The position numbers and the translations under genes were made by a program. Shown here in pieces: positions 257 through 33,894 of a stretch of DNA of 49,971 bases. The DNA is taken from positions 1 to 49,971 of the forward strand of contig JAHHIL010000045.1 in NCBI GenBank assembly GCA_019358975.1, read 5' to 3'. The notes under the pieces are model-generated. The model saw only the letters and a program-made list of their open reading frames with translations, ran no database searches and had not been told where the DNA came from. This stretch comes from Trichocoleus desertorum ATA4-8-CV12 (GTDB lineage: Bacteria; Cyanobacteriota; Cyanobacteriia; FACHB-46). The stretch's first letter is position 1, and each line of letters begins with the position of its first letter.

Positions 257-2947
257 ATGACTTTCCCTAGCCGATTGGCTCAACTGAATCCCTCTCGTAG
301 CCTCCAAGCGCGATTAGGATTGGCAACGGGTGGCATTGTGCTGCTGCTATCAATCTTGCTGAGTTGGCTGGTGGGGTATACCACGAGCGTTCAGTTGCAG
401 AATACTCAGGGGCAATCTCTGGCTGAGTTGGCTTATCAAATGGCCGACAAACTCGATCGCGGCATGTTTGAGCGCTACCGCGAGATGCAAATTCTGGCGG
501 CTCTACCGCCCATTCGCAACCTAACTTACTCATCTGCGGCTCAGCGATCGCTGTTAGAAAAGTTGCAAGACACTTTCCCTGACTACGCCTGGATAGCGCT
601 AATCGATCCTCAGGGCACCGTACTTACAGGCACTGGCGGAATTCTCGAAGGGGTCAGTGTTGCTTCGAGGGATGTGTTTCAGCAAGGACGGAATAAACCT
701 TTTGTCGGCGATGTTCACGATGCCGTCATGCTGGCTAAGCTGCTGCCACAGACCAAGGGTGAACCTTTACGATTTCTGGATCTATCCGCTCCGGTGCTCA
801 GTGAGCAGGGGCAGTTGCAAGGTGTGATTGCTGCGCATCTCAGTTGGGATTGGGCAGAGGAGGTCAAGAAGTCGTTGCTGGAACCGATGGCCCAGCACAG
901 CCAGGTTGAAATTTTTGTGTTGGATACGGCAGGTCAAGTCTTGCTCGGCCCTGATGCTTTGGTCGGAAAAACTTTGGCTCTACCTAGCGTCCAAGCAGTT
1001 CAGGCTAACCAAAATCACTATGTATTGGAATCTTGGCCGAGTGAGGAAAAATTTTTAACTGGATTTGCCCGCACCCAAGGATATCGTGATTATCCTGGCT
1101 TAGACTGGCTGGTGCTAGTGCGGCAAGATGCAGATGTGGCCTTAGCTCCGGCGCGGCGGCTGCAAAATCAGATCTTAGGGCTAGGGCTAATTTGTGGCAT
1201 TGGGTTTGCTATCCTCAGTTGGCTCAGTGCTAGCCTGATTGTCAATCCGATGCTAGAAATTGCGGCGATCGCCAATCGGATGCGGCAAGGCGATCAGAAA
1301 GTTGTGATTCCGCTTATGCAGGGGCGAGACGAACTGTCCAAGCTCTCCCAATCCTTACGTTATTTGGTCTCTGCGCTGAGTGAGCAGCAAGAAGCGTCAT
1401 ACCAAAGTGAAGAACGCTACCGATTACTAGCAGAAGCGCTACCGCAATTTGTTTGGCTGCTGGACACCGCCGGACAAGCCGAATACTGCAATCACTACTG
1501 GTATGACTACACAGGCTTGAGCGAGGCCCAAACCCTAGGCTATGTCTGGGATGCAGCGTTACACCCAGATGACCAAGCTCGCCTGAAACGAAAGTGGCGA
1601 CAAGCTGCTAAGACAGACAACCAATTCGAGATTGAGTACCGGATTCGCTCTGCTACTGGGGAATACCGCTGGTACTTAGGCTCCCTTGGGCCTGCACGTA
1701 ATCAAGAAGGGCAGATTATTAAATGGGTAGGAACGGCAGTTGATATCGAATCTCGTAAGCGGGCCGAAACCGAACGGATAGAACTCCTTCATCGAGAACA
1801 AACGGCTCGCCAACAAGCAGAAACAGCTAACCAGCTCAAAGACGAATTTCTCGCGGTGTTGTCCCACGAATTGCGATCGCCCTTGAACCCGATTTTGGGC
1901 TGGGCTAAGCTGTTGCGAACTCGCCAGTTTGACGCCGAAACCACCGATCAAGCTTTGGAAACCATTGAACGCAATGCGAAGCTTCAAGCTCAACTGGTAG
2001 AAGATCTGCTAGATGTTTCTCGGATTTTGCAGGGCAAGTTGGGCCTGAATATTGCCCCAGTGAATCTAGTGACGACGATCGAATCAGCGATCGAAACGGT
2101 GCGTTTAGCGGCAACAGCCACATCAATTGAGATCCACACCAAGCTAGATCAACGCGTAGGTTTGGTGGCAGGAGATGCGAACCGTCTCCAACAGGTGATG
2201 TGGAATTTGGTGTCTAATGCAGTCAAATTTACGCCTGCTGGAGGCCGTGTAGAAGTGCAGTTAAAGGCAATGTCCCCTTATGCTCACATTCAAGTGGTTG
2301 ATACAGGGAAAGGCATTCGTCCAGAATTCTTACCTCACGTGTTCGATCATTTTCGTCAGGCAGACAGTAGCATCACCCGACAATTTGGAGGCTTGGGGCT
2401 GGGGCTGTCAATTGTGCATCAAGTGGTGGAGTTGCATGGCGGTACAGTGCGAGTAGACAGTCCTGGGGAAGGTTTGGGCTCAACTTTTACCGTGCAGTTG
2501 CCAATGATCCAAGGGGCTCCAGTCGTAGAGTCTGTTGAATCTCCAACCGAGCCAGAAATGAGTCTGGTTGGCATTAGAGTTTTAGTTGTAGATGACGAAG
2601 CGGATATGCGGACGTTAGCCAGTACGGTTTTGGCCCAAGTAGGCGCGAAGGTCGAGGTGGCAGCTTCTGCGGCAGAGGCATTGGCGGTGTTGCGGCGCTC
2701 AGATGTAGATGTGTTAGTGAGTGACATTGGCATGTCCGAGATGGATGGCTATCGGCTGATTCATCAAGTGAGAATGATTGCACCATCCCTAGAAGCTCCC
2801 CTGCCTGCGATCGCGCTGACGGCTTACGCGGCTGAGTCTGACCAAAAGCAAGTCCTCTCCGCAGGTTTCCAAAAACATCTGGCTAAACCCGTAGAACCGG
2901 ACGAGTTAATTCAGGCGATCGCCACCCTCGTAAAACGACCCCTCTAG
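257..2947 (+). CDS. Membrane hybrid histidine kinase (sensor-HAMP-PAS-HisKA-HATPase-REC)
   Basis: 896-aa inner-membrane sensor kinase. A first membrane helix (about 20-42) and a second (about 305-329) bracket a roughly 260-residue periplasmic sensor that resembles a double-Cache domain. A HAMP linker (about 330-375), a PAS fold (about 385-500), a HisKA domain with phospho-acceptor His537 in SHELR, and a HATPase with N654, DTGKG near 682 and a GLGLG lid near 713 follow. The C-terminal receiver (about 774-893) has the DD pair, phospho-acceptor Asp823 and Lys877. All catalytic residues are present, so phosphorelay from His537 to Asp823 is expected. The stimulus is unknown. A single-domain response regulator lies 190 bp downstream on the same strand and is a plausible partner. 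No strong ribosome-binding site precedes the ATG. Confidence 0.93.
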   Translation: MTFPSRLAQLNPSRSLQARLGLATGGIVLLLSILLSWLVGYTTSVQLQNTQGQSLAELAYQMADKLDRGMFERYREMQILAALPPIRNLTYSSAAQRSLLEKLQDTFPDYAWIALIDPQGTVLTGTGGILEGVSVASRDVFQQGRNKPFVGDVHDAVMLAKLLPQTKGEPLRFLDLSAPVLSEQGQLQGVIAAHLSWDWAEEVKKSLLEPMAQHSQVEIFVLDTAGQVLLGPDALVGKTLALPSVQAVQANQNHYVLESWPSEEKFLTGFARTQGYRDYPGLDWLVLVRQDADVALAPARRLQNQILGLGLICGIGFAILSWLSASLIVNPMLEIAAIANRMRQGDQKVVIPLMQGRDELSKLSQSLRYLVSALSEQQEASYQSEERYRLLAEALPQFVWLLDTAGQAEYCNHYWYDYTGLSEAQTLGYVWDAALHPDDQARLKRKWRQAAKTDNQFEIEYRIRSATGEYRWYLGSLGPARNQEGQIIKWVGTAVDIESRKRAETERIELLHREQTARQQAETANQLKDEFLAVLSHELRSPLNPILGWAKLLRTRQFDAETTDQALETIERNAKLQAQLVEDLLDVSRILQGKLGLNIAPVNLVTTIESAIETVRLAATATSIEIHTKLDQRVGLVAGDANRLQQVMWNLVSNAVKFTPAGGRVEVQLKAMSPYAHIQVVDTGKGIRPEFLPHVFDHFRQADSSITRQFGGLGLGLSIVHQVVELHGGTVRVDSPGEGLGSTFTVQLPMIQGAPVVESVESPTEPEMSLVGIRVLVVDDEADMRTLASTVLAQVGAKVEVAASAAEALAVLRRSDVDVLVSDIGMSEMDGYRLIHQVRMIAPSLEAPLPAIALTAYAAESDQKQVLSAGFQKHLAKPVEPDELIQAIATLVKRPL

Positions 2948-3136
2948 AGCGATCCGCTGTCTTTGCGTAGTGCAGCCAGATTTGCGTACCTCGAAAGTGA
3001 TAAAAAATACTTTTCGGCTTCATGAAAATTCCACTCCTTGGAAGCTTTATTGCTGCTCCCAGAATGGGTAACTTAGCAAAAGTTCCCTTCATCGCCCTTG
3101 TGGACTGACTACTACAAGCGGCTTTTCATTTCTGCT

Positions 3137-3574
3137 ATGACAATCTTGCAAGACCAAAACTTAATTGCGCAGCCTTTACCTTTAGCAGATCTATGGTTGC
3201 TACTGGTAGAAGATGAGCCAGATATTGCTGAGCTGCTAACTTTTTTATTAGAGCAGTCTGGAGCCCGCGTGATCACTGCTGGTTCAGGTCACGAAGCCCT
3301 CAAAACAGTGGAATGTTTTGTTCCCGATGTATTCATTAGTGATATTCGGTTGCCTGATACGGATGGTTGGTCCCTTCTCGCTGAGGTGAGAGCGTTAGAA
3401 AACCAAAAAGGGTTGCAGGTCGTTCCGGCGATCGCGATTACCAACTACAGCACGAAATTGCTAGACCAACAGGTGAACGCGAAGGCGTTAGCCGCTGGGT
3501 TTCAGAAGTACTTCTCTAAGCCTTTAGAGTTTGACGAGTTTGTGATGGCGGTGGCTGAGTTAGCTCATCGTTAG
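3137..3574 (+). CDS. Single-domain response regulator (REC only)
   Basis: 145-aa cytoplasmic receiver protein with no output domain. The acidic pair E25-D26, phospho-acceptor Asp69 in the ISDIRLPDTDG segment and Lys128 in SKP are all present, so it should accept phosphate. I start it at the ATG at 3137; an upstream in-frame ATG at 3098 adds 13 residues unlike the family. The preceding hybrid kinase on the same strand is the obvious candidate donor, with this protein acting as a diffusible phospho-acceptor or shuttle. The pairing is inferred from position only. Confidence 0.88.
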   Translation: MTILQDQNLIAQPLPLADLWLLLVEDEPDIAELLTFLLEQSGARVITAGSGHEALKTVECFVPDVFISDIRLPDTDGWSLLAEVRALENQKGLQVVPAIAITNYSTKLLDQQVNAKALAAGFQKYFSKPLEFDEFVMAVAELAHR

Positions 3575-23966: not shown

Positions 23967-23971
23967 AGGAG
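23967..23971 (+). promoter_or_regulatory. Shine-Dalgarno for the interrupted Nudix gene
   Basis: AGGAG lies 8 nt before the ATG at 23980. It shows that the full-length reading frame, not the GTG at 24049 downstream of the in-frame stop, is the original start. Confidence 0.65.
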
Positions 23972-23979
23972 TTTTTGAA

Positions 23980-24540
23980 ATGATGCGATCGCCTCGTAAA
24001 TGGCAAACCTTGCGTTCTCGCATGGTTTTGGATCACCAATGATGCCGAGTGCGGCAAGACACGGTGCTGTTGCCTAGCCAGGAAGTGATTGATGACTATT
24101 TCGTCGTGGTTCGGCCTGATGTGGCGCTAGTCCTTGCCCTTACCGCTAACCAAGAAATTGTGTTTGTGCGGCAATATCGTCACGGTATAGGGGAAATCTT
24201 ACTAGAACTCTCAGCGGGTACTTTTGACCCCAATACTGAAAGCCCAGAGGTTGCTGCCCAGAGAGAACTACAAGAGGAAACAGGCTACAGTGCCCCTCAC
24301 TTGCTGAAACTGGCAACCCTATATGACAACCCTGTAAAAGATACGAATCGGATTCATTTATTTGTGGCTCAGAATGCTTTTATTTCTGGTGAGCAAAAAC
24401 TTGATGTGACTGAAGCCATTGAAGTTGTTTTAATTCCGATAGAAAAGGTATCAGAAAAAATCTTGAAAGGAGAAATTTGTGTGTCTGGAACGATCGCAGC
24501 TCTGTGTCTGGGGCTGCAATTTCTCAACTTCTCCCAATAA
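23980..24540 (+). pseudogene. Nudix hydrolase (ADP-ribose pyrophosphatase-like) with in-frame TGA
   Basis: Read from the ATG at 23980 the frame encodes 20 residues (MMRSPRKWQTLRSRMVLDHQ), then TGA at 24040-24042, then CRVRQDTVLLP and the rest of a Nudix protein to 24540. Relatives normally have tryptophan here (a W-x-V/R motif preceding the RVRRDTV strand), so TGG has become TGA. The Nudix box is AGTFDPN ... AAQRELQEETGY, intact apart from one extra residue in the loop, and the family hydrolyses ADP-ribose or similar nucleoside diphosphates. A restart at GTG 24049 would give 163 aa without the first strand. It may be a recent pseudogene, a readthrough gene, or a sequencing error. Confidence 0.75.
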
Positions 24541-33591: not shown

Positions 33592-33640
33592 ATTTACTTA
33601 AAGCGCCAGTTCGCTGGCAAAGTTTTGGCGCTTAGTAAAT
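33592..33640 (+). other. Bulged stem-loop with alternate inner UUCG hairpin
   Basis: A long stem pairs ATTTACT (33592-33598) with AGTAAAT (33634-33640) and AAGCGCCA (33601-33608) with TGGCGCTT (33626-33633), interrupted by a 2-nt bulge. Inside it, GCCAG (33605-33609) and CTGGC (33614-33618) form a perfect hairpin around TTCG. The two pairings share bases and compete. There is no T-tract. This could be the 3' end of the STAS mRNA or a small structured RNA. Confidence 0.5.
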
Positions 33641-33894
33641 TCATAAGGTCCCCAAATGGCCCCCACAGTACTTGACCTGTGGTTGGGTCTATTCCTTTGT
33701 CATAACTTGTTTCTGATTGTCAAATTCACCACAAAGGCAGTGGGCTAGAGCAACTAATTCAGGCGAAAATTGCATGGTGGCTGAGACTCCGTAATCTAAA
33801 ATTGTAGAATACAGAGACAGTCATCCTTGATTGGCGCGCTGTTGCCTTGGCAAACTTCCCGTCAAGCGAGAGAATGAAGTTACTGATCCCCTCA
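33641..33894 (+). promoter_or_regulatory. thf1 upstream region
   Basis: The 254 bp hold a CCACAG/CTGTGG hairpin near 33664-33682 and a CCTTTGT/ACAAAGG inverted repeat with a long loop further on. A 30-codon hydrophobic open frame (33656-33748) has no ribosome-binding site and was not accepted as a gene. No promoter is recognised with confidence. Confidence 0.35.

Follow-up and report, generated by a model that had tools for sequence, protein, structure and literature searches.

The window analysed here is the whole stretch of 49,971 nucleotides of Trichocoleus desertorum ATA4-8-CV12 (contig JAHHIL010000045.1). Its Nudix hydrolase gene at 23983..24540 carries an in-frame TGA in place of the codon for a conserved tryptophan. 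Probably (roughly 0.72) it represents a Nudix pyrophosphatase gene conserved in cyanobacteria that has recently become a pseudogene or, at the level of the strain, a loss-of-function allele. A single substitution would have converted the Trp20 codon into TGA, and ribosomes starting at 23983 would halt after 19 codons; a second invariant residue, Pro77, has changed as well. Presumably no useful protein is made and constraint on the gene is relaxed, and the rest of the frame would still be open because little time has passed. The disabling TGA, which is known from the consensus of one assembly of one isolate, is absent from the intact orthologs, all 83 of which have TGG. The features of the locus are the following, where G002 and G001 denote the two related genomes with a syntenic region, G002 being the nearest relative in the set.

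23967..23971, + strand: Shine-Dalgarno-like AGGAG, from direct reading, present also upstream of the G002 copy
23983..24540, + strand: Nudix hydrolase gene, 185 codons plus TAA, broken at codon 20; start placed by comparison with G002 and G001
24040..24042, + strand: in-frame TGA, codon 20; TGG (Trp) in 83/83 orthologs
24049..24051, + strand: GTG, the alternative start of the earlier note; an internal Val/Ile codon in the orthologs
24211..24213, + strand: codon 77, which encodes Ser in the window and Pro in 83/83 orthologs; second private change, at an invariant column
24217..24288, + strand: Nudix box, residues 79-102, GTFDPNTESPEVAAQRELQEETGY, intact by sequence reading and alignment

Translation of 23980-24540 on the forward strand gives MMRSPRKWQTLRSRMVLDHQ, the stop, and then CRVRQDTVLL..., with the TGA at 24040-24042 as the sole internal stop. 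The earlier note had described a Nudix gene with a good ribosome-binding site at 23967-23971, an in-frame TGA, and a frame that resumes unshifted; the AGGAG was confirmed by direct reading, and the interrupted Nudix frame was borne out as well. The note had counted 20 family-like codons ahead of the stop. Their family-like character was upheld, while the start had to be moved: G002 has ATT ATG where the window has ATG ATG, so that the second ATG, at 23983, is the conserved start, 19 codons precede the stop, and the TGA is therefore codon 20. All but one of the residues encoded by these 19 codons are the same as in the nearest relative, and in the frame translation the 165 codons that follow the TGA contain no further stop and no indel. 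These 165 codons score 49.1 bits against the Pfam NUDIX model (PF00293; cut-off 21.1); this score, together with the match to the nearest relative ahead of the TGA, shows that the Nudix frame is not a chance one.

For the ortholog comparison, 110 loci were collected, comprising 83 orthologs of at least 50% identity with a readable region, the locus L098, two entries representing the window, and 24 Nudix proteins with less than 50% identity, which were excluded from the Trp count; L098 was dropped, its frame being broken near the same region. Codon 20 is TGG in 83/83 orthologs, including the syntenic copies of G002 and G001, and a stop at this codon occurs in 0/83. The view that relatives usually have Trp at this place was thus an understatement, and a single TGG to TGA substitution without frame shift accounts for the stop, as had been proposed. 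The Nudix gene is intact in both G002 and G001, whose syntenic regions diverge from the window by 6.1% and 16.1% of aligned bases, respectively. Two other loci of the collection contain broken copies. In L098 (~2945-3432), from a Richelia MAG, a frame change splits the ortholog after ~22 residues, which could reflect a further decayed copy or a misassembly; L073 (~2930-3130), from a MAG of Trichodesmium erythraeum, has a partial and decayed Nudix duplicate directly upstream of the intact copy.

The catalytic REL..EE..G core is present in the interrupted gene as RELQEETGY (residues 94-102), and R94, E95, E98, and E99 are invariant in the ortholog alignment. Measured against the textbook Nudix box pattern, the box is one residue longer between the G and the first E, as it is in the orthologs seen. 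The NCBIfam models NudE, AdpP, and NudK all scored far below their cut-offs, the NudE equivalog (NF008736) reaching 70.9 bits with a cut-off of 169; no exact enzyme name is therefore justified and the substrate is left unsettled. Judged by sequence, the gene family is a conserved cyanobacterial Nudix pyrophosphatase with a predicted activity of the ADP-ribose/NDP-sugar type. The relatives have the N-terminal strand domain and the loop-L1 base-stacking aromatic of ADPRase/NDPSase-type enzymes, and the stop in the window falls on that residue. Other Nudix loci of the same genome found with this query have 31-33% identity only, and among the Nudix loci listed for the genome, for which 10 Nudix domains are listed, there is no second intact copy of the ortholog.

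The best solved relative, both by sequence (E 2.3e-21) and by fold (TM-score 0.83), is the nucleoside diphosphate sugar hydrolase Bd3179 of Bdellovibrio bacteriovorus (5C7Q and 5C7T, called NudF). The comparison was made with a predicted model in which the TGA was read as Trp (mean pLDDT 91.5). Bd3179 shares with the Trichocoleus protein the three-strand N-terminal domain, a base-stacking aromatic at the position of Trp20, and the Nudix box; it differs in its sequence (~29% identity), its intact gene, and a box spacing that is off by one residue. The alignment to 5C7Q is free of gaps over residues 8-40 and places Trp20 on Tyr19. According to the parts of the structural study cited here, Y19 of 5C7Q is located on loop L1 and stacks on the nucleobase, and an aromatic residue is conserved at this place in E. 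coli ADPRase and NDPSase (PMC4629899). By alignment, Trp20 would correspond to this loop-L1 aromatic, and its loss should matter because of that correspondence. The ADP-ribose pyrophosphatases Rv1700 (1MQW) and those of Thermus (1V8I) and Bacillus methanolicus (8ZR8) have the same fold and domain plan, both of which are also shared by E. coli NudE (1VHG), the enzyme whose NF008736 equivalog cut-off was missed.

Between the window protein and that of G002 there are 10 differences, two of which, the stop and P77S, fall on columns that are invariant in all other orthologs. Pro77 precedes the first G of the Nudix box by two residues and is Pro in the five solved chains displayed. With the stop left out, P77S is 1 of 9 differences on an invariant column, compared with 0/137 in ortholog pairs of at least 90% identity and 2/274 in pairs of at least 80%; taken alone it is marginal (p ~0.06 and 0.09, respectively). 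Random placement would put at least 2 of 4 changes on the 26 invariant columns with a probability of 0.095, for which reason this test by itself is weak and the close ortholog pairs are the better control. When each sequence was left out in turn, the invariant columns bore two private changes in the distant L009 as well and one in each of 11 sequences. The ratio of nonsynonymous to synonymous changes is not significantly raised on the window branch, with 4:5 in the Nudix gene and 153:532 in the remaining genes of the window (p = 0.12); the Nudix gene has 5:8 on the sister branch. Taken together, the sequence comparisons suggest, and do not prove, decay of the Nudix gene, which would be recent if real.

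Among the three readings left open by the earlier note, that of a fresh pseudogene is favored, programmed readthrough is disfavored, and a base-call error is the less likely alternative. An error of base calling or assembly, in which case the living strain would have TGG and a working gene, is the main rival and is considered rather unlikely. It would fit a draft genome of 90 contigs and a difference of one base in an otherwise intact frame. However, the consensus looks clean here, with no other mid-gene stop or frameshift in the window genes compared with G002, where a single G002 ORF extends four codons beyond the stop of its counterpart; moreover, P77S, an independent second change at an invariant residue, would likewise have to be put down to error or coincidence. 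The nonsense changes found elsewhere in the genome cannot all be errors either. In ten control stretches of ~20 kb, 9/116 genes were flagged in this genome and 5/116 in G002 in the reverse direction; most of the nine are weak cases, their stops lying within the first 40 codons or the ORFs being short and doubtful. One of the nine, an ABC exporter gene on contig C38 (L180, 5389-7179), contains nonsense codons at positions 19, 307, and 427 of 596 without any indel, is intact in G002, and is the only one with an internal stop among the 150 ABC-domain matches listed for three genomes. This transporter gene is clearly dead, so genuine decay of genes does take place in this genome. A restart of translation at GTG 24049, which would give a functional but shortened product of 163 residues that keeps the entire Nudix fold, is regarded as the most improbable outcome. 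Restarts near a stop occur in bacteria, the ORF is open for 163 codons from this GTG, and the Pfam NUDIX match, at residues 26-136 of the 165 encoded downstream of the TGA, lies within it. Yet no Shine-Dalgarno-like run is found upstream of the GTG, no homolog begins there, all 83 orthologs continuing upstream in frame through the Trp, and the product would lack strand 1 (residues 8-18 in the predicted model), loop L1, and the stacking aromatic. In 5C7Q, the three-strand N-terminal domain is swapped between subunits and recognizes the base, as stated in the cited parts of PMC4629899. The earlier note's candidate start finds no backing in the homologs.

It is likewise decidedly improbable that the TGA is decoded with low frequency by the ordinary tRNA-Trp, in which case the gene would be a knock-down allele supplying exactly the native protein in small amount. 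The tRNA-Trp gene (L130 1500-1573, - strand; also L182-L186) has the anticodon CCA, a five-pair anticodon stem, and A24 paired with U11, in the standard cloverleaf numbering. In favor of leaky reading, the residue inserted by this tRNA would be the native one, and A24 is the base of the Hirsh UGA suppressor of E. coli, which is a G24A change in tRNA-Trp (PMC11805395 and PMC13092985, in the parts cited). The tRNA has, however, the same sequence in G001, G002, and G020, with one T-loop base changed in G051, A24 being common to all four; since it is shared across relatives, A24 is a trait of the group that is not tied to the Nudix TGA and is no adaptation to it. Many bacterial tRNA-Trp genes with A9C and/or G24A are also described in the cited part of PMC13092985. 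The base following the stop is U, a context of low readthrough in E. coli and yeast, and for UGA in Cyanobacteria the cited part of the same source gives no clear context pattern (PMC5289835). Against leaky reading there are furthermore the intact RF2, whose gene prfB is complete (489 bits), the stop, which no ortholog has kept, and P77S, which would be unexpected in a gene kept working. Somewhat less probable still is the broader proposal that basal reading of UGA as Trp is appreciable throughout this cyanobacterial group, owing to the A24 of its normal tRNA-Trp, with enough full-length Nudix enzyme being made. Reassignment of UGA to Trp (code 4 type) is disfavored by the intact RF2 and by a tRNA-Trp with the anticodon CCA that is unchanged from relatives. 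Programmed readthrough or recoding is disfavored by the stop in 0/83 orthologs, the UGA-U context, and RF2, and selenocysteine by the fact that the relatives carry Trp there and neither Cys nor Sec. Known systems of UGA-to-Trp reading (Hirsh G24A; tRNA-Trp with a 4-bp anticodon stem) resemble the present case in the TGA at a Trp site and in A24. The case differs from them in the five-pair stem, the presence of RF2, and the lack of a UCA anticodon among the 41 tRNA genes confirmed by ARAGORN (42 places), a list that may be incomplete, since 150 of 312 candidates were scored and several tRNAs that should be present, tRNA-Ile among them, are missing from it; also, relatives with the same tRNA-Trp use TGG here.

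A raised C-to-T rate, from damage or a mutator, was considered after Gln- and Trp-codon nonsense changes had appeared in the control stretches. It was rejected because the C-to-T shares, pooled over both strands, are alike on this branch (319/849 changes) and on the sister branch (406/1045). Comparison of the window with its relatives also revealed differences in gene content. The segment 13705-19125 is absent from the syntenic region of G002, and its part at 15.2-19.1 kb from G001, too; it contains a gene for a Uma2 protein followed by genes for a PstS-like binding protein, two permeases, and an ABC ATPase, the latter four looking like a phosphate uptake operon. Around 33600-33780 only scraps are left of a 202-codon ORF of G002, which would fit an insertion or deletion distinguishing the two genomes.

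The favored nonsense allele of the Nudix gene is an ordinary event, and there is no sign of an unusual genetic code. As in ordinary bacterial pseudogenes with a single nonsense codon, one lineage-specific stop is found in a frame that is otherwise open; nothing unusual was found by comparison with these, apart from the position of the stop at a Trp codon. In the portion of the literature surveyed for premature-stop Nudix pseudogenes in cyanobacteria, the match concerned RSH proteins only. As a pseudogene, the locus would be of little importance, meaning that one Nudix pyrophosphatase retained by many cyanobacteria is dispensable for this strain. Since the residue lost is the base-stacking Trp and A24 is found in the group's tRNA-Trp, the site could nevertheless be used as a natural probe for basal readthrough of UGA in cyanobacteria. 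If such basal reading of UGA were true, TGG-to-TGA changes would be nearly silent in weakly needed genes.
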